In this document: in pieces, positions 35,505-63,887 of the stretch
How positions within the stretch are numbered: position 1 is the stretch's first letter
How the letters are laid out: every line of letters starts with the position of its first letter
Origin: Herbaspirillum sp. ST 5-3
GTDB taxonomy: Bacteria > Pseudomonadota > Gammaproteobacteria > Burkholderiales > Burkholderiaceae_D
DNA: 64,000 nt
Direction of reading: 5' to 3'
NCBI RefSeq assembly: GCF_004804275.1
Contig: NZ_STGI01000001.1
Coordinates: 434,001 to 498,000, forward strand
The notes under the pieces: model-generated
What the model was told of the DNA's origin: nothing
Seen by the model: only the letters and a program-made list of their open reading frames with translations
Database searches by the model: none
Program-made: the position numbers and the translations under genes

Positions 35505-36265
35505 TCCGGCTTGAACCGCGGCAGGTAATCGCGCTGCAGCCATGCTTCCGGCACATCGCGTTTTGCATAGTCGGAAAAGCGCATCACCGTCACCCAATTC
35601 GGATCGAGGCCGTCGATGATGACGGTTTCTGTCGGCCGCTCGGCGCCGAGCTGCGTCTGGTAGCGGCGGAAGTAGGCGCTCTTGAGCAGGCGTCCGCTTT
35701 CGGTGTAGTAGCGCGCCTTGACCGGGCGGTTGTTGCTCGTGTCTATCCACATCTCGATGCGATGGTAGGTGACGTCGGGCGCGGTCGCGGCCAGGGCAAG
35801 CTTGTAGCAGTGGCGGGTCTTCCGGTCGCCGTCCTGCGTATCCTCCTCCGCCTCCAGTTCCGCCTTGTAGTCCTTGGCGAGATTGGCCGTGACGATATCG
35901 CCGTTGGCGGCCTGGCCAAGCAGGCGCTGCTGCGGCGAGATGCGGATGCTGGCCTTGTTGGACGGATCGTAGAACCACAGGTCGTTTCCGCTCTTGAGCA
36001 TCAGCTTGTTGGCATCGCGTGCCGGCGCGATGAAGCGGATCAGGCTGCGGAACTGGCCGCTGTTCTTGTCCGCCTTCGAATACACCGCCAGCGTGCTGGT
36101 GTCGTTCTGCTTGCCGCTCTTGTATTCGATCAGTGTGGTGGTCAGACCGAAGGAATAGTCGGGATTGCGCACGGCATCGCTGGCCGCGAGGATGTCCTGC
36201 GCGGTGGGCGCGGCATGTGCCAGCCCGCCGATGGTGAGTAGAAACACTGCTGTGAAGACTCGCAT
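35501..36265 (-). CDS. Outer-membrane lipoprotein-sorting (LolA-like) protein
   Basis: Periplasmic protein of 254 aa. Signal peptide at about residues 1-18 (VFTAVFLLTIGGLAHA). The mature part has the LolA/LolB-like half-barrel pattern: SLIRFIAPARDANKLMLKSG, DLWFYDPSNKASIRISPQQR and RIEMWIDTSNNRPVKARYY. Proteins of this type accompany MacB/FtsX-like transporters and are thought to carry lipids or lipoproteins. It lies 131 bp downstream of the permease gene and is coupled to the barrel gene. Confidence 0.85.
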   Translation of the reverse strand: MRVFTAVFLLTIGGLAHAAPTAQDILAASDAVRNPDYSFGLTTTLIEYKSGKQNDTSTLAVYSKADKNSGQFRSLIRFIAPARDANKLMLKSGNDLWFYDPSNKASIRISPQQRLLGQAANGDIVTANLAKDYKAELEAEEDTQDGDRKTRHCYKLALAATAPDVTYHRIEMWIDTSNNRPVKARYYTESGRLLKSAYFRRYQTQLGAERPTETVIIDGLDPNWVTVMRFSDYAKRDVPEAWLQRDYLPRFKPE

Positions 36266-55833: not shown

Positions 55834-56637
55834 CTAGCGTGCGACGGTTCCGCGAACTGCCCAGGCACGTGCCATCAAGGAGATCGATCCGTCCGCGCTC
55901 ACAGGAATGCGATCTCTTATACCGTCCCGCAGGCGCGCTCGTGCTGCCTCGTCGAGCGACATCGCATACGCAGGAGCCGGCCCCTGGCCGCCGAGGAACG
56001 GCTGCCAGTAGTCATCGAAATTGTTGAACGGCGTCGGAATGTCGATCGACTTCACTTCAACTCCGGTCAGATTAGCATCGGTAAAGAGCGCCTCGAGCGC
56101 TTCCGGCCGGCATACCGGAAAACGCACGCCTTCGTCCACCTTCGCAGCGTCCGGGTCCAGCTCGACCGCCGCATCCCAGAACAAGCGCATGAGCTCCATC
56201 TTTCCCGCGTAATCCCAGACATAAGCCGCGATCACGCCATCCTTGACCGCTACCCGCTTCATTTCAGCGAGCGCGGCGCGCTGATCTGGGATGAAGTTCA
56301 GGACCAGCCCCGAGACCACCACATCCACCGACGCATCGCCGAGCGGAATCGCCGTCCCGCTGCCTTGGTGCAGCTCCGCCTGCCCGCCGAGATTCTCCTT
56401 CGCGGTCTTGAGAAATCCCTCCGAAGGTTCGACGCCGACGACGGAGGATGCAGCGCACTGATCGGCAATCGCCGCGCAAAGCGCTCCCGTGCCGCATCCC
56501 ACGTCGAGCCATCTCTTCCCGGCTGGAATGTTCAGCCACGACAGGAACAGCGGCGCCACCTGCCGGCTCCACCGACCGACATACTGCTCATACGGGTTGC
56601 CACGCTCCCAGGTGTCGGAAACTTGTTTGGGCTCCAT
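55834..56637 (-). CDS. Class I SAM-dependent methyltransferase
   Basis: Methyltransferase of 267 aa. Motif I is LDVGCGTGALCAAIA (about residues 44-58), the acidic loop is VVGVEPSEGFL, and motif post-II is ASVDVVVSGLVLNFI. The type is Methyltransf_11/25-like; the N-terminal ERGNPYEQYVGRWSR is common in this group. Substrate unknown. It is convergent with the patatin gene and 427 bp downstream of another methyltransferase on the same strand, but the two are not close in sequence. Confidence 0.9.
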   Translation of the reverse strand: MEPKQVSDTWERGNPYEQYVGRWSRQVAPLFLSWLNIPAGKRWLDVGCGTGALCAAIADQCAASSVVGVEPSEGFLKTAKENLGGQAELHQGSGTAIPLGDASVDVVVSGLVLNFIPDQRAALAEMKRVAVKDGVIAAYVWDYAGKMELMRLFWDAAVELDPDAAKVDEGVRFPVCRPEALEALFTDANLTGVEVKSIDIPTPFNNFDDYWQPFLGGQGPAPAYAMSLDEAARARLRDGIRDRIPVSADGSISLMARAWAVRGTVAR

Positions 56638-57064
56638 GGTGAAACCTCCTGCGTGGTGATGAAGCGCAACGCGGATATCGCGGTCACGTTTGCGCGACCT
56701 TGTTCATCCCGGTATTAAAGGAATGCAAAGCATTGGACTTTTCTTGGCCGATGCCCGCTTGCTGAAGCACCAGAAGAGCGGCGGACAGGCGCTTCCCTAA
56801 CCCCATTTTCTTTCGGAGGTATAACCGAATATTTGACATCCCTCATGATGCTCGGCGTTCGGCGCAGCAAATGATGTGGTCGAGAGCATGAGAGCCAGAG
56901 ATTGGCGCAGCGGTGACGCAGATTCCATGTTGACACGGCCGCCAAGGAGCCCATCACAGATGCCGGATAGTCGACTGCAGGACTCTCCCTCTTGCCGTCC
57001 CTATCGGTCAGTTCTTCGTACTTTGGGGAAGTCCATTCACGATTGGTTGGCAGTCCGCACACGA
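56638..57064. other. Intergenic region between two methyltransferases
   Basis: About 430 bp. Minus- and plus-strand open frames exist but their products look like chance translations. No hairpin, RNA or repeat was convincing. It marks the change to the accessory, gene-poor stretch that follows. Confidence 0.45.
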
Positions 57065-57928
57065 TCACTTCGTGGCTGCACAGACAAGGCACTCACCCGG
57101 CACCTCGAACCCACTTGACGATTCGAAACTGCGCATTGAATCCTCTACTTCGTTCCACACGGACTCGCATTCCCGAGGGGACAGGTGAGCCATCATGGCA
57201 TTGAATCCACCGAAGGCTTCTCGCGCGACCCGGACATACTCGGCGGAACTGGCCGCTCCATGGGGCACCGGCACGGCGCGAAGCTCGGCATCGGCAAATC
57301 CGGCTTGACGGAAGAGGTCTTCGAGCACTCCGGGACCACCAAGGCTGAACGGTCCGGGTTGTCCCGGAACGGGAGGCGGGAGTTGCGCGCGCCGGCGGAT
57401 GATAGAAGCGGGCAAGGCGCCCCAACTGTTTCTATCGGGCGTGGAAAAGACAGCGGCAGCAACCCGACCACCCGGTCTCAGAACACGGCGCCACTCGCGT
57501 AGCGCTGTCACGGGGTGCGGCATATACATCAGACCCAGCCGGCACAGCACCGTATCGAACGAAGCGTCCGGGAGATCAAGCTTCTCACCGTCCATGGCGC
57601 GTGTCTCGATCTGTTTGAGCCCGCGTTCACGGGCGACCTGGAGCGCAAGCTCGATGATCCCTTCCGAGATGTCGGTCGCCAGCACATACCCGCCAGGGCC
57701 AACTCGCTCGGCGGCACTGACTGCCGGCTCACCGGCGCCGGCGGCAATGTCCAGGATGCGCTGGTCTGGCTGAATCCGGGCCATGTCGAGCATCTGGCGA
57801 GTCGCCACGCCATACCAACGCTCCAGGGTGGGAGTCCAGCGCCGCCATGCCGCACCGTCCTTGTTCCATTGCTCTCGCTGCGCGTTCTTGTACTTCGCTG
57901 CGTCGAATGAGGGTTGCTGCTCGGCCAT
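57065..57928 (-). CDS. UbiE/Methyltransf_11-like SAM methyltransferase
   Basis: Methyltransferase of 287 aa. Motif I is LDIAAGAGEPAVSAAERVG (about residues 59-77), followed by LATDISEGIIELA and SFDTVLCRLGLMYMPHP; LRPGGRVAAAVFSTPD is motif III. The N-terminal QREQWNKDGAAWRRW is typical of the ubiE-like group. Clear ATG at 57928 with GGAGGA upstream. The product is probably a small-molecule methyltransferase, not necessarily in quinone synthesis. Confidence 0.9.
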   Translation of the reverse strand: MAEQQPSFDAAKYKNAQREQWNKDGAAWRRWTPTLERWYGVATRQMLDMARIQPDQRILDIAAGAGEPAVSAAERVGPGGYVLATDISEGIIELALQVARERGLKQIETRAMDGEKLDLPDASFDTVLCRLGLMYMPHPVTALREWRRVLRPGGRVAAAVFSTPDRNSWGALPASIIRRRAQLPPPVPGQPGPFSLGGPGVLEDLFRQAGFADAELRAVPVPHGAASSAEYVRVAREAFGGFNAMMAHLSPRECESVWNEVEDSMRSFESSSGFEVPGECLVCAATK

Positions 57929-58055
57929 GAACGTCCTCCTCTCGGTTGGACCTTGATTTTACTTCGCGGCTGGGGATTCGGGCGCATCGCTTTTTCCGCC
58001 TTGGCATTCGAATTCACTCGAAAAACGTTGACCTTCGGCAAACAAGCAAGCGCAG

Positions 58056-58541
58056 TCACGACGCGGCGGCACCGCCATCCTTCACCGCTATATCGAAGTG
58101 CAATACGTTTTCGCGCACTCCCAGCTTTGAATACAGTGCGATGGCCGGATCATCGCCGAGATCCGCCTGCACAAAAATCACATAGGCCCCGCGCGCCGCT
58201 GCAATACTCTTGAGTTCCTGGATCAAGGCCGTCGCGATACCCTCGCGCCTGTGAGCGGCCGCGACTGCAAGATCGTAGATGTAGATCTCACTACGTTCCT
58301 GCTCGAACTTCTTCAGCTCGTAGGCCGCGATGCCGCCTACGACCTCACTCCCCTTCAATGCGGCGAGTGCGATGAAATAGTCGGACCCAAGCAACCGGCG
58401 GAGATAATCGCCGCTCGGGCGATTCCTGCCATAGGTTTCGGCCTCATCGAAAGCTTCTCCGAAGACAGTGAGAAGTGCTTCCATCAGCGCAACATCGTCG
58501 GATTCAAGCTGGCAAATGCGGAAATCAGGCGGAAGGGACAT
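58056..58541 (-). CDS. AAC(3)-I-like aminoglycoside N-acetyltransferase (GNAT)
   Basis: GNAT acetyltransferase of 161 aa strongly resembling the AAC(3)-I group: [52 protein letters not shown] (acetyl-CoA loop), [20 protein letters not shown] and [12 protein letters not shown] start at ATG 58541, with GAAGGA upstream; a TTG five codons before is possible. Whether it acts on aminoglycosides is not shown by sequence alone. Similar genes are commonly carried on integron cassettes; no attC-like site was seen here. Confidence 0.85.
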
Positions 58542-58724
58542 GAGTGCATCCTTCAAGAATCAGTGGATGACGGCCGGCGCACGTACGTTGCACTCAGTCC
58601 GCCATTCCGAAGAGGTAAGTACTAAAATTATTCTCCCACCGGGCATCATTGAAACGGCGCGCGGTGTCCGTTGGTAGAAGGGAGCGGGGTTGAGCGCCGT
58701 GCAAAATCTGTCCGCTCATGTCGC

Positions 58725-59207
58725 TCAATCGAAGACCCTCGACATGATGTAGTCGTTCACGTACTCCGCCTCATCGGCGCGCTTGTAGAACTTCCGCAGA
58801 GTCCCTTCGATCTCGAATCCGTGTCGCTCGTAGAAGGATATTCCACGAGGATTATCGGACTCCACGATCAACTCAATGCGCTTTATGCCCGACTTCTGAA
58901 GTTCATGGATGGCTTCGGTGACCATGTTGTGGGCGACTCCACGACCTTGAAACTTTGGCGCGACGGCGAGAGAGCCCAAATAGGCGACGTGAGCTGCACG
59001 CCCCGGATGTCTGGCGGCCTTGTAGAATCCCGCGACTTCACCATCCACTTCGTACACCCAGAAGTGACTGCTTTCCACGAGCTCTCGAAAGATGGGGCGA
59101 AATGGCTCGATTGGCATCGGATCAAAACCAAGAAAGCGAACAACCGTCTCTTCCATGTAGATGCGAAAGACGGCCTCAAGATCACGCATTTCAGCAAGGC
59201 GGCGCAC
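58725..59207 (-). CDS. GNAT-family N-acetyltransferase
   Basis: Acetyltransferase of 160 aa. The acetyl-CoA-binding segment is LAVAPKFQGRGVAHNMV (about residues 79-95) and motif B is NPRGISFYERHGFEIEG. The N terminus (RRLAEMRDLEAVFRIYMEE) is in the usual place. Length and pattern fit RimI/PhnO-like GNATs; the substrate is unknown. It lies 18 bp after the broken membrane gene on the same strand and may have been co-transcribed. Confidence 0.88.
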   Translation of the reverse strand: MRRLAEMRDLEAVFRIYMEETVVRFLGFDPMPIEPFRPIFRELVESSHFWVYEVDGEVAGFYKAARHPGRAAHVAYLGSLAVAPKFQGRGVAHNMVTEAIHELQKSGIKRIELIVESDNPRGISFYERHGFEIEGTLRKFYKRADEAEYVNDYIMSRVFD

Positions 59208-59225
59208 TGTGTCTCCTGAAATTGT

Positions 59226-59585
59226 TCATTTCCGCGAGATGGGTTTCTTGAACAGCGCAACAAGCAAAAGCGCTGCGCCTAGGAGCGCCCAGAATGCCGG
59301 CGCGCCTTTCGGGCCGATCCCGTAATAGAGGATTCCGTATAGTCATGATCCTTTGCCGGTAAATGGCGGCAAACGAGGGTTCAACCATTCCGCCACGGCG
59401 ATTGCGAAAGAGGCGAACGATAATCCGATCGCCAGGTATCGGGCCTGCTTGATTTCGGAAGCAGTGTATCGACCTCCTGGAATGCTCGGCGTTACCTTGA
59501 TCGGTTTCGTCCTCAGCAAATATGCGTCGATCAAAATCCAAATGCATAGGGCAAGAAGCAATATGCCACCGATGATGATTTCCAT
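59226..59585 (-). pseudogene. Membrane protein gene interrupted by an in-frame TGA
   Basis: From ATG 59585 the frame encodes MEIIIGGILLLALCIWILID, a first helix, then YTASEIKQARYLAIGL with a second helix, and reaches a TGA at 59345-59343 after PPFTGKGS. In the same frame the coding pattern continues at once (LYGILYYGIGPKG, then helix APAFWALLGAALLLVALF) to a second stop at 59228-59226. So 119 codons of one three-helix protein are broken by a single TGA, most simply a TGG-to-TGA change at codon 81. The 80-aa product might still be made. Confidence 0.65.
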
Positions 59586-59660
59586 AAATGCTGAAATTTG
59601 ACGACTACATTGACCGGGACCGGGCATCGGAATCCCCCGGCGCCCCTCTGGCGCACGATA

Positions 59661-60053
59661 CTAGGCTTTGGTGTGATGATCCGCGTATGCCACGCCATGA
59701 CCAAGCGACCAATCCATGCGCGAGTTTTCAACCAGCGCAATCATGATGTCATCTGCCCGGAAGCCTGCTTCCACTGCTCTGTCAGCAATATGACGGAAAA
59801 GCGCTCGTTTCTGATCATCGGTACGCCCGCTCAAAAAAACGATTTCGGCGATGCACGCGTCGCTGGACCGGTGTACGCCTCCGAAATGAGGATCAAGAAT
59901 CATCTCTTCGGCATCGAAGCGAGAAATCAGCTGAAAGAGATCGTTCGGCGGGACATTGCAGGTTTTCACGAGCCCGTCCTGAACAGCCGCGGCAAGAGCT
60001 TTTACCTTGCTTGATGAGAGGTGTCTGGGGGCGGAAATTTTTGTTAGTGGCAT
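59661..60053 (-). CDS. Tautomerase-family protein
   Basis: Small enzyme of 130 aa starting MPLTKISAP, so the catalytic N-terminal proline is available after methionine removal. DDQKRALFRHIADRAVEAGF and ALVENSRMDWSLGHG match the longer Tautomerase_2-type family. Members keto-enol tautomerise or dehalogenate small acids. The gene begins 83 bp past the last attC-like site, but no such site follows its stop, so whether it is a cassette is open. Confidence 0.85.
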   Translation of the reverse strand: MPLTKISAPRHLSSSKVKALAAAVQDGLVKTCNVPPNDLFQLISRFDAEEMILDPHFGGVHRSSDACIAEIVFLSGRTDDQKRALFRHIADRAVEAGFRADDIMIALVENSRMDWSLGHGVAYADHHTKA

Positions 60054-60136
60054 TGGGCGTCTTGACTTAGAAGTATTGGAAAAACAGCATTACATTAATA
60101 CGCACGGAGTTAACTCATGCAATGTTGGGTCTTGCA

Positions 60137-60203
60137 GCCCAACCTGCCGTGCTTGATCAGCGCACACAAAATGTGTACACCCGTGTCGAGGGAGTTGTTA
60201 TGT
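60137..60203 (-). other. attC-like site 1 (after the DUF4304 gene)
   Basis: Bounded by GCCCAAC (60137-60143, matching RYYYAAC) and GTTATGT (60197-60203, a degenerate GTTRRRY), 67 bp, with a central stem ACACA-AAA-TGTGT and weak complementarity of the outer arms. The DUF4304 stop codon (TAA on the minus strand) lies inside the right box, the standard place in integron cassettes. Confidence 0.5.
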
Positions 60204-60749
60204 CGCATCACTCTGCCACCGCTCATGAATTGCACGGACATGATTGTGAACAAGTATTGCCCACGATCGGACATCTTCTTCCGAAAAGTACCGAAACCAC
60301 ACGTGGTCCTCTCGAGAATAGGGCCGACTGACCTGCTTCCAGTCTTCGAGAAAGTACGCAATGTACGTTGTCGGGTTCTTGAATACCTTCTCGAATCCTT
60401 TCACCATGTCGTTTATGTAGTCAGGAGGTGGCGGAGGAATGTTTTGAAGGATTCTGTTCTGCCTCGCCCTGATGTATTCGAGCTCCGGCAGGGACAGGTA
60501 ATTGGCCAGTTGAAACTGAGCCCCGTCATCCAAAGTTGGATCTGGCCCGCTGCGAATCCAAACGCTAAACTTCGATCCCTTGTAAGGATTCCAGCCATCA
60601 TGGTGACAGCGAATCTTCACAACGAAGAAATCCGGGCCGACTTGCCGCTGGTAGACAGGGTTACTCGACGATTGCGACTTGAAACCGTTTTCCTTAAACC
60701 AAGGCCCAAGCACGCTGCGCAGAACCCGATATGTGTCCTTAGCCTTCAT
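60198..60749 (-). CDS. DUF4304 domain protein
   Basis: Protein of 183 aa. KDTYRVLRSVLGPWFKENGF followed by YQRQVGPDFFVVKIRC is the DUF4304 signature, a domain of unknown function common in mobile cassettes and possibly linked to toxin-immunity systems. I prefer ATG 60749 (MKAKDTYRV) over the TTG at 60767. The start lies 22 bp from the preceding attC-like site and the stop is inside the following one, as expected for a cassette gene. No promoter is apparent. Confidence 0.75.
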   Translation of the reverse strand: MKAKDTYRVLRSVLGPWFKENGFKSQSSSNPVYQRQVGPDFFVVKIRCHHDGWNPYKGSKFSVWIRSGPDPTLDDGAQFQLANYLSLPELEYIRARQNRILQNIPPPPPDYINDMVKGFEKVFKNPTTYIAYFLEDWKQVSRPYSREDHVWFRYFSEEDVRSWAILVHNHVRAIHERWQSDAT

Positions 60750-60771
60750 CTTTCTGCATAAGCACAATAAG

Positions 60772-60857
60772 GTTTGACGTGAGGGGCGACCAGAGCTGGA
60801 GGCAAAGGGAACCTGAAGCGCGGCTTCAGGGAATCTGTCTCGACGAAATTGTTAGAC
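60772..60857 (-). other. attC-like site 2 (after the SMI1/KNR4 gene)
   Basis: GTTTGAC (60772-60778) and GTTAGAC (60851-60857; rev. GTCTAAC fits RYYYAAC exactly) can pair with G-T wobbles. The centre is a perfect hairpin CCTGAAGC-GCG-GCTTCAGG (60812-60830). Total 86 bp. The SMI1/KNR4 stop codon is in the GTTAGAC box and the DUF4304 start is 22 bp beyond the other end. Confidence 0.65.
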
Positions 60858-61412
60858 GTACTTCGCATCAACCAAGCCACCATATTCTTCAGAATAGACA
60901 TACTTTCCTGCGAGAACGCCTGCTACATAGGTATCAAAGTACTCGCCAAAACTCCCAGCCTTTACCTCGCGCATTTCCATATCGTGCCACATGGTAATGA
61001 CTTGGCCCGCTGAACCGGATACTGCAGGATCAAGGTCTAGGCAGAGATGATCCCCGCCGCCATTGTGAGTGAACGGAATCCACTTTGGATTCCACCAATC
61101 GTTCTTGACCCCTTTCTCAGGCTCGGAAGATATGTCTTTGAAATCCCCGCCATCTAGAAGCTCCTTCCAGACTAACCACTGACTATAAATCTCCTCGCAC
61201 GACAAGAACTCCATCCCATCAAATAATGATGAGTACCCGCTTTGGCCGTTATGAACCTTGATGCACGAGACAAAATCATTAGGAAGCTTTGTTCCTAATT
61301 TTTCTTCTAGGTCAGATATCTGCTCATCAGATGCCGGCGGATTTAAAGTGGAAAGACCTTCGGGCCAATGCTCAGAAAGCCACTCTTCTAACTTCTTCCA
61401 TGATTCTTCCAT
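60852..61412 (-). CDS. SMI1/KNR4-family protein
   Basis: Protein of 186 aa of the SUKH superfamily: SDEQISDLEEKLGTKLPNDF followed by HNGQSGYS and PKWIPFTHNGGGDHLCLDLDP are the classic SMI1/KNR4 segments. In bacteria these often act as immunity proteins against contact-dependent or polymorphic toxins, though no toxin is seen here. Start ATG 61412, 16 bp from the next attC-like box; frames further upstream are not coding. The composition is markedly more AT-rich than core genes, as is usual for cassettes. Confidence 0.85.
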   Translation of the reverse strand: MEESWKKLEEWLSEHWPEGLSTLNPPASDEQISDLEEKLGTKLPNDFVSCIKVHNGQSGYSSLFDGMEFLSCEEIYSQWLVWKELLDGGDFKDISSEPEKGVKNDWWNPKWIPFTHNGGGDHLCLDLDPAVSGSAGQVITMWHDMEMREVKAGSFGEYFDTYVAGVLAGKYVYSEEYGGLVDAKYV

Positions 61413-61427
61413 AAAGATTCCTTGTAC

Positions 61428-61489
61428 GCCTAACATAGAGGTGACCGGCGCCTTGCCGCAACGTGTCCGCGTCGACCGGCCTATTAACC
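61428..61489 (-). other. attC-like site 3 (after the MltR-like gene)
   Basis: Left box GCCTAAC (61428-61434, exact RYYYAAC), right end ATTAACC (61483-61489, degenerate). The inner arms ATAGAGGTGACCGGCG and CGCGTCGACCGGCCTAT are partly inverted copies. The MltR-like stop lies in the right box. Length 62 bp. The right box is poor, so confidence is moderate. Confidence 0.5.
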
Positions 61490-62011
61490 CGCGCCGGCAA
61501 CATGCTCGGTTCCGAGTGCGATAAGCAGGATGCGGTTGAGAATCATCACTGCAGTGATGGTAAATCTGTCGCGAGGCCGTTCCAGCCACGCCGAATCGAT
61601 GATCTGCGCACCGCCTAGTGTGGTCAGCGACTGAGCGTAATCCAGCTTTCCACAATGGCCTTTAATCTGCTCAGAAGCGAACGACAGCTCAAAATGGTGG
61701 TGAGCCGTCTCATTCCGGAGTTCTGCGAGCACGAGGAGGTCTTTGTACATGGCCTTGGGGATCAGGCCCAAGGTGTAGGCGAGGTCTGTTCTCGCCGCGA
61801 AACTCCCAATCGCACCCGATCGCGAGTCCAGGAGTTTTTCAGAGACACTGCTCTTGAGTAGGCGCTTAGACAGCAGCGACGCGAGACAGGCGTCGATATA
61901 GCTGACGCCCACAACGATGGCCGACGTATCCGGACCCGAGTTCAGCACCTCGTACAGGTGCGTCGAGTCAGTGGACAATTCCTCTGGGGGGATGGGCGGG
62001 CGTCGTGCCAT
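61484..62011 (-). CDS. MltR-like (mannitol repressor family) protein
   Basis: Protein of 175 aa. YIDACLASLLSKRLL, GSFAARTDLAYTLGLIPKAM and LRNETAHHHFELSF match the MltR fold, an all-helical domain whose members are often not repressors but unknown regulators. ATG 62011 is 17 bp from the attC-like box at 62029. High GC, more like the host than its neighbours. As a cassette gene without other context, no target can be given. Confidence 0.8.
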   Translation of the reverse strand: MARRPPIPPEELSTDSTHLYEVLNSGPDTSAIVVGVSYIDACLASLLSKRLLKSSVSEKLLDSRSGAIGSFAARTDLAYTLGLIPKAMYKDLLVLAELRNETAHHHFELSFASEQIKGHCGKLDYAQSLTTLGGAQIIDSAWLERPRDRFTITAVMILNRILLIALGTEHVAGAG

Positions 62012-62028
62012 AACGGACCTCCTGCGCG

Positions 62029-62043
62029 GTTTAACGCCGATCT
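62029..62043 (-). other. Left fragment of an attC-like site split by the IS
   Basis: GTTTAAC (62029-62035; exact RYYYAAC) then GCCGATCT, cut off by the IS end. Together with 63409-63466 it restores a site of about 70 bp with a TAGCGC-GTA-GCGCTA centre. TAACGCCGAT (62032-62041) also matches a guide in the putative IS RNA. Confidence 0.5.
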
Positions 62044-62056
62044 ATGGACTCCCTCC
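62044..62056. repeat. IS inverted repeat, left
   Basis: ATGGACTCCCTCC, exact reverse complement of 63396-63408; marks the end distal to the transposase start. Confidence 0.85.
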
Positions 62057-62313
62057 GTTTTGCAAGACATTCCGTGTTGGTGTTGATTTGAAATCGACTG
62101 CACAAATCTATCCGGCCTACTGTGGCACCCGTCGGCACCGGCCCTGATGTCATTCGCTCGCAGACTTCCTCATTAGCTAAGCGGCCTTGCTTCGGCCATC
62201 AGCGTTACCAGGCTCTTGTCTGCGTGAGTTCGACTCATTTCTCCATCAACCCGTCTTGCTCGCAATCGTCGGCGGGGTACTCCGTTTGGTTTATCTTCGG
62301 CGCCCAGTTCTTC
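62057..62313 (-). ncRNA. Putative bridge (seek) RNA region of the IS
   Basis: Non-coding 257 bp after the transposase stop. On the minus strand it can fold into a stem CGCAGAC/GTCTGCG (62224-62218 with 62165-62159) enclosing, in order, TAACGCTGAT, a small hairpin GGCC-GAAGCAA-GGCC, and CCGCTTAGCTAATG. The first guide equals the left flank TAACGCCGAT except one base (T for C, a possible G-U pair). The second is the complement of the right flank CATTAGCTAAACGG except one base. This is the layout of a bridge-RNA target loop with left and right guides. RNA boundaries and the donor loop are not defined. Confidence 0.6.
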
Positions 62314-63327
62314 TCAGGCAGCCGTCCTGTATTCCGTGCCTCTGGCAAGCATGGCCCACATAATCCGGGCATGCTTGGCTGCCAGTGCGACTGCGACGAC
62401 ATTGGCGCAGGACCGTTTCTGCAACTCCATCGCCCACTGGCTTTTGCGATCTGTCTTTCCACCTGCCAAACGCATCACGCTGCGCGTGCCATGGATCAGC
62501 AGCGTGCGAAGCCGAACATCCCCACGCTTGCTGATGCCACCGAGGCGGCTCTTGCCGCCACTGGAATGCTGGCTTGGGGTCAAACCCAACCACGCCGCAA
62601 ACTCGCGCCCGTTGCGAAACAGCTTCGCGTCGCCAACACTGGCCACCATCGCCGTTGCCGTGATCGGCCCGACACCTTCAATTGCCATCAGTCGCTTGGC
62701 CGCCTCACTCTGCCGCGCTATGCTGCTGATCTTGCGTTCGTACTCCAGCGCCTTGTCGTCGAGCTTTTGCATGCGCTCGTACAACTCACAAATCGTTTCC
62801 TTGGCCAGCAATGGCAAGGCTCTGGTGCCCGTTTCAATTTCCATCATCACCCGCCGCAGCCTCGCCATACCGCGAGTGACGACGATGCCGAACTCCCCCA
62901 GCAGGCCGCCAATCTGGTTCGACAGCGCGATCCGTTCCGCCACCAGCAGATCCCGGGCACGATGCATCGTCAGAATCGCTTGCGCCTCTTCGCTCTTGAT
63001 CGGCACGAAACGCATGTTCGGACGACCAACTGCCTCGCAAATCGCATCAGCATCGTTGGCGTCGTTCTTGCCGCTCTTGCGATAAGGAATGACGAACTGC
63101 GATGCCATTAACCGGGCATCATGTCCCAATCGCTTGAGCTCTCTGGCCCAGTAATGCGCGCCGCCACATGCTTCAATCCCAACCAGGCACGGCGGCAGCT
63201 TCGCAAAGAACTCCAACACCTCGCTACGGGACAACGTCTTCTTCAGCTTCGCCTTGCCATGCTCATCCACGCCATGCACCTGAAACACCAGCTTTGCGAT
63301 ATCCAATCCGACTCGTACGATTGCCAT
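62314..63327 (-). CDS. IS110-family transposase (IS1111 type)
   Basis: Recombinase of 337 aa. The N-terminal RuvC-like DEDD domain begins VRVGLDIAKLVFQVHG (Asp9), with GIEACGGAHYWARELK and GKNDANDADAICEA supplying the further acidic residues. The C-terminal Transposase_20 part has IEGVGPITATAMVASVGDA, the helix-hairpin-helix, then AAWLGLTPSQHSSGGKSRLGGISKRGD with the serine nucleophile region. Full length, intact, ATG 63327. It is therefore potentially active. Confidence 0.95.
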   Translation of the reverse strand: MAIVRVGLDIAKLVFQVHGVDEHGKAKLKKTLSRSEVLEFFAKLPPCLVGIEACGGAHYWARELKRLGHDARLMASQFVIPYRKSGKNDANDADAICEAVGRPNMRFVPIKSEEAQAILTMHRARDLLVAERIALSNQIGGLLGEFGIVVTRGMARLRRVMMEIETGTRALPLLAKETICELYERMQKLDDKALEYERKISSIARQSEAAKRLMAIEGVGPITATAMVASVGDAKLFRNGREFAAWLGLTPSQHSSGGKSRLGGISKRGDVRLRTLLIHGTRSVMRLAGGKTDRKSQWAMELQKRSCANVVAVALAAKHARIMWAMLARGTEYRTAA

Positions 63328-63395
63328 CTCCGCTCTCCCTGATCAGACGCGGCACAATTGCCCGCTTGATCTGCAGTCTACCCAGCTTCAGAGGT

Positions 63396-63408
63396 GGAGG
63401 GAGTCCAT
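63396..63408. repeat. IS inverted repeat, right
   Basis: GGAGGGAGTCCAT, exact reverse complement of 62044-62056; lies 69 bp before the transposase start codon. Confidence 0.85.
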
Positions 63409-63466
63409 GACATTAGCTAAACGGTAGCGCGTAGCGCTATCCGGGTCGAGCGACAAATTAAATTCC
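63409..63466 (-). other. Right fragment of an attC-like site split by the IS
   Basis: Starts with GACATTAGCTAAACGG beside the IS end, followed by a perfect TAGCGC-GTA-GCGCTA hairpin (63424-63438) and GTCGAGCGACAAATTAAATT near the SseB-like stop. ATTAAAT partly mirrors the GTTTAAC on the other side of the IS. CATTAGCTAAACGG matches the right guide of the putative IS RNA in 13 of 14 positions. Confidence 0.5.
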
Positions 63467-63467
63467 G

Positions 63468-63887
63468 TCATGCACTCCTCGCCGCTTCGGTTCGCATTTG
63501 TTGAACGCGCTCAGCAGATAACTCTAGGCCAGCGGGTGACCCCGGATTAACAACAATTCCGACTCCTGGAGCGACACCTTTTATCAACCAACTAAAGTTT
63601 GTGAGAAGCGCAAAGCAGAACTGAGGAAATCGTTTTGGCCACTCGACAGAGCGCTCCAGGGCGGTGAACAACGCCATCACAGAGTCACCATTTCGGTTTG
63701 CCAGAATTAGGGGCGACGCAGTGTTATCCCAAACGCCAGCTGGGTCAATATCTTTGTCAATGAGTGTTAAAACCTGAGAAGTCCATAGCTTGTCCATAAA
63801 GACTGAAGGGGAAACTTTCCCCTCCTGCGCTTGAACCAGGCAATCTTCCAGTTCGTTGATTGGTTTAAATTCAGCTGGCAATTGCAA
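63468..63887 (-). CDS. SseB-domain-like protein
   Basis: Protein of 139 aa. INELEDCLVQAQEGKVSP, ASPLILANRNGDSVMALFTALERS and APGVGIVVNPGSPAGLELSAE follow the SseB N-terminal domain pattern (a non-catalytic fold found in many contexts). No ATG is in frame before the upstream stop, so translation starts at TTG 63887 or the nearby TTG 63881, unless the start is elsewhere. AT-rich; it ends at the split attC-like site and is probably a cassette gene. Confidence 0.65.
   Translation of the reverse strand: MQLPAEFKPINELEDCLVQAQEGKVSPSVFMDKLWTSQVLTLIDKDIDPAGVWDNTASPLILANRNGDSVMALFTALERSVEWPKRFPQFCFALLTNFSWLIKGVAPGVGIVVNPGSPAGLELSAERVQQMRTEAARSA

Follow-up and report, generated by a model that had tools for sequence, protein, structure and literature searches.

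An insertion sequence (IS) lying between two short genes of Herbaspirillum sp. ST 5-3 raises the question of whether RNA encoded in its own non-coding end tells it where to insert and, if so, what that RNA reads. We analyzed a window of 64,000 nt around the element (NZ_STGI01000001.1, positions 434,001-498,000, forward strand; coordinates below are those of the window unless a contig or locus is named), for which an original prediction had proposed an IS1111-like element whose non-coding end carries guides matching both of its flanks. We consider it very probable that this is an intact IS1111 element with a seekRNA-guided insertion at the L'/R' border of an integron attC site, its guides specifying both flanks.

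The stretch from 62041 to 63415 (minus strand, 1375 bp) is an intact insertion sequence of the IS1111 group, of which the host genome contains one full copy. Its transposase (337 aa; 62314-63327, minus strand) is intact and exhibits the DEDD_Tnp_IS110 domain and C-terminal Transposase_20 domain of the IS1111/IS110 family, both above their Pfam cut-offs, as well as a score of 349.9 bits against NCBIfam NF033542 (cut-off 140). Residues D9, E52, D89, D92 and S255, which we take to be the catalytic residues, were invariant in nine aligned sequences (the window element and eight relatives). We placed the ends from the subterminal inverted repeats (sTIR) and from the terminal extensions of relatives. 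The repeat is perfect over 13 bp (ATGGACTCCCTCC at 63396-63408 on the left and GGAGGGAGTCCAT at 62044-62056 on the right, both minus strand). Beyond it lie a 7-bp extension on the left (TAATGTC, 63409-63415, minus strand), whose first base is the core base common to the target, and a 3-bp extension on the right (AGA, 62041-62043, minus strand). The left extension starts with YAATG in 46 of 61 relatives, with KGATG in 12 and otherwise in 3. As in the IS1111 group, the longer non-coding side is downstream of the transposase gene: 270 nt separate the stop codon from the outer edge of the right repeat (62313-62044), versus a distance of 81 nt between the start codon and the left repeat's outer edge (63408-63328). 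The repeat and extension lengths agree with those given for the group (11-13 bp, and 7 and 3 bp) in an extract of PMC11187229. The family profiles, repeats and extensions thus bear out the predicted IS1111-like element with its intact IS110-type transposase, but the bounds proposed for it, 62044-63420, were off by 3 and 5 bp.

The downstream non-coding side contains a putative seekRNA-like guide RNA (62139-62237, minus strand), recognized at 56.3 bits by a covariance model of which it is itself 1 of the 36 building sequences. From the fold and from relatives, CGCAGAC (62218-62224) and GTCTGCG (62159-62165) would form its outer stem. Between these arms stand guide 1 (TAACGCTGA, 62199-62207), an inner hairpin that parts the two guides (GGCC-GAAGCAA-GGCC, 62183-62197) and guide 2 (TTAGC, 62176-62180), with the core U next to it at 62175, all on the minus strand. 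Read in the sense of the transposase, guide 1 is complementary to the right half of the target (8/9, plus one G-U pair), and guide 2 equals the left half (5/5). The 66-nt stretch that had been predicted to fold into a 7-bp outer stem and an inner GGCC hairpin did so with a minimum free energy of -28.8, compared with a shuffled mean of -17.8 (z -4.0; as good in 0 of 200 shuffles), whereas the fold of a 131-nt context was weaker (z -2.1; 3 of 200 shuffles as good). A search of the 64-kb window with Rfam at the gathering threshold gave no match.

The guide-flank matches of the window element are not chance. The strings on which the original prediction was based were located at 62207-62198 (TAACGCTGAT) and 62184-62171 (CCGCTTAGCTAATG) on the minus strand and, for the flanks, at 62032-62041 (TAACGCCGAT) and 63411-63424 (CATTAGCTAAACGG) on the plus strand. 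When the 257-nt stretch between the stop codon and the right repeat was subjected to 20,000 dinucleotide shuffles, 168 reached the left match (at least 9/10), none reached the right match (at least 13/14) and none reached both. Because the IS runs from 62041 to 63415, however, the right flank taken in that prediction opens with CATTA, which is 5 bp of the IS's own 7-bp left-end extension. The 14-nt match breaks down into 5 nt of guide (TTAGC), 1 core base, 4 nt of IS end, a mismatch at position -6 and the 3 nt CCG, in which the inner hairpin stem finishes and one further base follows. Thus, the 13/14 string exists as placed, but only 5 nt of it are target guide. With the corrected flanks we looked for 9 nt matching at 8/9 or better, then 5 nt plus the core at 6/6, in that order and with starts 15-45 nt apart; this arrangement arose in 1 of 20,000 shuffles and is found at one place in the 64-kb window, both strands included.

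We collected 110 loci that encode a relative of the transposase; among them are the copy in the window and some duplicates. Thirty of these came from 399 genomes of the order (28 genomes had a match at E<=1e-80), and the other 80 were the best 80 of 248 from a genome contig collection. Thirty-six downstream regions, picked by eye from elements whose guides could be seen to match, aligned in one architecture consisting of the outer stem, a CCYG/AGG stem, guide 1, the inner hairpin, guide 2 and the core, followed mostly by RAT or RTN. The original prediction had put forward folding with covariance as a check, and the predicted guide RNA fold shows strong compensatory change in this alignment. 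At 12 named core pairs, 96.8% of cells were paired, compared with 68.2% in shuffles, and 125 cells had changed on both sides, compared with 33.2; the pairing signal was lost when partners were slid by 1-3 columns. A weak measure, which counts the pairs that changed on both sides at least once, gave 10 versus 8.6 in shuffles and was reached by 42 of 500 of them. We applied the covariance model to 90 of these loci (all except L113-L132) and obtained 91 matches in 85 of the 90, with no RNA match in L028, L040, L055, L085 and L096. Comparison with relatives bears out the view that the non-coding end would encode a guide RNA, and the predicted product fits the description of a seekRNA, that is, a folded RNA of 70-100 nt in which a segment complementary to the top strand lies 5' of one complementary to the bottom strand. 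In six loci (L054, L058, L059, L060, L066 and L067) a second guide-RNA match was seen just upstream of the left end, and these elements look as though they had landed next to the right end of a further IS of this kind.

Do the flanks follow the guides? Element ends were obtained automatically for 84 loci and by hand for L054. A first test in free register, with the 82 elements whose flanks were long enough, gave 13.26 for own flanks and 11.71 for permuted ones. For tests in model columns, we dropped 25 of the 91 RNA matches (18 without ends, 6 not between the transposase gene and the right end, and 1 with a short flank), leaving 66, or 61 elements once duplicates were removed. Guide 1 scored 6.82/8 against its own right flank (permuted, 3.57) and guide 2 scored 4.75/6 against its own left flank (permuted, 1.92), with 0 of 20,000 permutations as good for either guide. 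In the guide-1 test, own and permuted flanks were both free to shift by 0-3 nt; with the shift held constant, the scores were 4.70/8 and 2.34. Because the 36 model sequences had been chosen by eye, we also ran the test on the 25 elements outside model building, which gave 10.6/13 for own flanks versus 5.96, again with 0 of 20,000 permutations as good. In a swap test, each element was paired with its closest relative having clearly different guides, and the flanks were exchanged (some elements entered several pairs). Own flanks beat swapped flanks in 50 of 50 pairs and in 33 of 33 at 70% or greater transposase identity; for the window element and L053, which are 84% identical, the scores were 23 (own) and 13 (swapped). 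Three groups of elements with identical guides had flanks that were similar, not always identical. Relatedness alone was considered as the source of the guide-flank match and set aside, the nearest-relative swap and the held-out test being against it. The right-flank match was 5/8 or less in 7 of the 61 elements (one of which, L063, has an N in its flank), and the left-flank match was 3/6 or less in 7 of 61; in Acidovorax temperans, two of five copies with identical guides match the right half poorly (5/8 and 4/8). As judged from these comparisons, both guides change along with the flanks across relatives. The predictions that the two guides would specify the two flanks and co-vary with them were thus upheld in the permutation and swap tests; and as for different guides with the same flanks, the outcome said beforehand to count against them, it was the guides that the flanks followed in all 50 pairs.

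The per-position match rates among the 61 elements point to a target of about 5 nt on the left and 9 nt on the right. Left-flank matches amounted to 97% at position -1, 95% at -2, 92% at -3, 85% at -4 and 75% at -5, and fell to 31% at -6, where the background is 30%. For the core base the rate was 95% (background 41%). Right-flank positions 1-8 matched in 74-93% (background 41-51%), position 9 in 56% (28%) and position 10 in 25% (24%). In 46 of 61 elements the first right-hand base is the IS's own first base. If wobble of the G-U type is allowed, 95% of the 61 elements have a second left-extension base that pairs with the RNA, yet this base shows little covariation (39% identical versus a background of 30%) and hence looks like a fixed rather than a programmable contact.

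To judge from direct alignment, the interrupted target is an integron attC site. Before the IS, positions 63416-63462 (minus strand) carry what would be the R''/L'' side and the central hairpin, ending CCGTTTAGC; after it, positions 62029-62040 (minus strand) carry TCGGC and an R' box, GTTAAAC. Joined, the flanks read CCGTTTAGC^TCGGCGTTAAAC and end in a GTTRRRY box, which we take to be the attC box motif. The joined 58-nt site folds as an attC-like hairpin (-18.0 kcal/mol), longer cuts pairing the outer part differently. It aligns with an uninterrupted attC of the same genome (contig C11, 942-890, minus strand), with which it has GTCGCTCGAC and AGCTCNGCGTTA in common and which lies about 1.8 kb from the integron integrase gene of that contig. 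By direct reading the C11 site is TCAGC^TCAGCGTTA, where guide 1 matches 9/9 and guide 2 matches 4/5. In the single copy at hand, the insertion is near one end of attC, at the L'/R' border, as in the IS1111-attC group. The original prediction held that the target specificity of the element could be read directly; the guides do match the flanks, but the attC identity of the target had been missed.

The integrase gene on C11 (2769-3707) scored 445.7 bits and contains one in-frame TAA, whereas a second integrase gene, on contig C10 (91124-92068), scored 458 bits and has an open frame; no integron integrase gene was found over the cut-off on C1, the window's own contig. About 7 kb from the C10 gene is an IS110-type fragment (C10:99237-99554). 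C11, besides its integrase gene, has a relic of an IS of the same kind as the window element (36016-36089, 74 bp, 89% identity), with a weak match to the covariance model (L018:15953-16045, that is, C11:35953-36045; E 0.048) and no transposase match on the contig.

We also searched for the target by pattern. The joint pattern GTCGCTCGACN{12,40}AGCTCNGCGTTA occurred in 2 of 294 genomes of the family, the host and one congener, and a control pattern in none. The congener's match sits in a textbook attC (GTTTAAC...GTTAGGC), although this genome gave no integron integrase match over the cut-off. A 14-base target pattern had 37 matches at 2 or fewer mismatches, compared with 216 in a reversed control; its sole match at 1 or fewer, C11:893-906, is the one match we used. 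An earlier version that kept bases of the IS's own end (2 matches versus 11 in the reversed control) was discarded. One attC scanner reported no sites, even at C11 sites read as attC by eye, and a second reported 7 sites in the 10.9-kb array, or 0.64 per kb, compared with 0.47-0.50 per kb elsewhere. For this reason we base the identification of attC on the alignment itself and on the pattern search across the family. Only 3 of the 61 elements (the window's, L053 and L092) have a GTTRRRY box among the 18 right-flank nucleotides nearest the IS, and attC targeting therefore belongs to the guides of this element rather than to the clade. When folded, L053 had a GTTAGGT box and no convincing palindrome, and L054 (80% identity) has no evident attC.

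The genes around the element are in keeping with a cassette array. A row of short genes on the same strand extends over 55834-63887 (minus strand) and encodes two methyltransferases, two GNAT acetyltransferases, a tautomerase, SMI1/KNR4-like, MtlR-like and SseB-like proteins and one protein without a Pfam match. Upstream of the interrupted attC is the cassette-like gene for a protein with an SseB N-terminal domain (139 aa; 63468-63887, minus strand); the next cassette-like gene, encoding the MtlR-like protein (175 aa; 61484-62011, minus strand), starts 17 bp after the R' box. Just outside the window, the same array holds another IS110/IS1111-type element, distinct from the first and in the opposite orientation, whose transposase frame is open (64361-65808 in window coordinates, L014:4361-5808 on C1, plus strand). 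By eye, the attC-like site that it occupies is interrupted in its other half (R''/L''), and the guide-1-like segment TAACTCTTC of the element fits the right flank CTAACTCCTCG, whereas TCGTAA, where guide 2 would be expected, fails to match the left flank (ATCCAG). Its best score with the covariance model, filters off, was 4.5 bits (E 0.1), and a tblastn search of plasmids with its transposase found nothing at E<=1e-80. What appears by eye to be a remnant like the right end of this second IS (AAGTACGAAGAACTGACCGATAGGGACGG..., compare 65740-65830) is present at 56930-57092 (minus strand), downstream of one of the array's methyltransferase genes.

An exception among the relatives was L165 (genome G472, contig C2; element L169:3335-4711), the closest one found, which is 90% identical to the window element. 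The guides of L165 predict TTAGC^GCGGCGTTA, and a near-identical sequence, TTAGC GTGGCGTTA, is present in its attC-like flank. The IS, however, sits exactly 5 bp to the left of the predicted point, with the result that TTAGC is on its right; the match is 4/8 and 2/5 at the actual site, compared with 7/8 and 5/5 at the predicted one. The displacement is exactly as long as guide 2 and stays inside the one attC-like site. An integron integrase gene of G472 lies about 0.7 Mb from the L165 element. It is conceivable, though rather unlikely, that the guide register of the clade is not rigid and that one loop might read the target and the donor junction by turns, with strand exchange at either edge of guide 2 and two attC phases as the outcome.

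Tetu & Holmes 2008 and Post & Hall 2009 are reportedly the papers cited for the IS1111-attC group, comprising ISKpn4, ISPst6, ISPa25 and ISPa21. According to an extract of PMC11187229, seekRNAs co-purified with the transposases of the attC-targeting ISKpn4 and ISPst6, and attC targeting spans diverged transposases, ISKpn4 and ISPa25 being 46% identical. Compared by description rather than by sequence identity, the window element resembles these four in having an IS1111 transposase, repeats with 7/3-bp extensions, a downstream non-coding seekRNA region, a top-strand match 5' of the bottom-strand match and a target at one end of attC (PMC11187229, in extract). Unlike that group, its guides read TTAGC^TCRGCGTTA, and all the matches to it listed from a plasmid collection were less than 60% identical. 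Like ISEc11 and ISXne4, close relatives with different guides (L023, L053 and L054) go with different targets; ISEc11 differs in its short linear target and in that its redirection was tested experimentally by the authors (PMC11187229, in extract).

The order of the guides sets the element apart from IS110. In the transposase sense guide 1, the 5' one, is complementary to the right top strand and guide 2, the 3' one, equals the left top strand. Siddiquee et al. 2024 (PMC11187229, in extract) give this order for IS1111, and it is the reverse of that in IS110, as the extracted account of IS621 has it (PMC11208160). The original prediction had seen the orientation of the IS110 rule here, but this fits only the plus strand of the window, with the element read backwards. 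IS621 (Durrant et al. 2024) resembles the element in its two-part guide in one internal loop, its guide-target covariation and its pairing lengths of 8-9 nt and 4-7 nt, and differs in that its RNA is upstream and its strand matches are in the opposite order (PMC11208160, in extract). Here the RNA lies downstream, not upstream, of the transposase gene, and the rule for an IS621-type bridge RNA, by which the 5' side of the target loop pairs with the bottom strand, does not hold. The same extract of PMC11208160 describes a second, donor loop for IS110. Similarity of the transposase to IS621 (PDB 8wt6) is confined to residues 209-331 (E 3.9e-07). That IS1111 elements target attC is already in print, as is the seekRNA mechanism (2024), and the comparisons make the element a well-supported new example of a known mechanism. 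Among the papers listed for IS1111/attC/integron, seekRNA, bridge RNA and RNA-guided IS110, none dealt with this element itself.

On the reading that we favor, the right (downstream) end of the IS would encode a seekRNA of about 80-100 nt, transcribed from the circle junction as in the published mechanism (PMC11187229, in extract) and presumably bound by the transposase. Guide 1 (9 nt) is complementary to the 9 nt that adjoin the insertion point on the right, and guide 2 (5 nt plus one core base) equals the 5 nt to its left plus the core. In each half of the target, which is about 14 bp long, the seekRNA would pair with one strand, and the pairing would direct an orientation-specific strand exchange joining the 7-bp/3-bp ends of the IS to the target; excision would probably need the same flanks, if we extend to this element what an extract of PMC11187229 describes. 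The target so read would be the L'/R' border of an integron attC, TTAGC^TCRGCGTTA, which would explain why the IS lies between two cassette genes and in the same orientation as them.

Could the guide-like segments be captured target DNA, acquired by chance or imprecise excision, with no guiding role and with the transposase alone picking the site? The matches are short, and the 14-nt stretch continues into the IS's own end, as capture would allow. The guides, however, occupy fixed places in a conserved, covarying RNA fold; the flanks track their own guides in all 50 nearest-relative pairs, some of them 84-94% identical in transposase; and in published work, altering the seekRNA and the donor flank jointly redirected IS1111 elements (PMC11187229, in extract). 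We regard capture as exceedingly improbable.

A guide role would be secondary if the element instead recognized the folded attC hairpin and not linear sequence. The target is indeed the palindromic attC, and L165 is also in an attC-like site despite a guide register 5 bp off, but the whole set of 61 follows its guides with the GTTRRRY box near the right flank in just 3, and L054, at 80% identity, is without an evident attC; hairpin recognition is thus very unlikely. That the interrupted site is an intergenic sequence resembling attC, and not attC, strikes us as quite unlikely. Its R'' side is degenerate (ATTTAAT), its outer fold pairs vary with the cut of the site, and the density of scanner sites in the array is little different from that elsewhere, all of which would suit a mere resemblance. 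Against this stand the alignment with the attC beside the integrase gene on C11, the GTCGCTCGAC and AGCTCNGCGTTA boxes that it has in common with the textbook attC of the congener, the row of short same-strand cassette-like genes and the nearby second IS110/IS1111-type element, which by eye is also in an attC-like site.

Finally, we note what the element and its relatives may mean for the clade and for integrons. The comparison provides a per-position target map for this IS1111 clade, covering 5 nt on the left and 9 nt on the right inclusive of the core base, as well as a covariance model able to find guides from sequence, and the 5-bp exception of L165 marks a gap in how the insertion point is set. 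With the IS at the L'/R' border attC is split in two, and IntI should as a result be less able to move the upstream cassette; an extract of PMC11616780 calls the evidence limited as to how integron function is affected when IS1111-group elements insert. The element would represent an RNA-guided transposase aimed at integron recombination sites, whose insertions could block or alter the mobility of cassettes.
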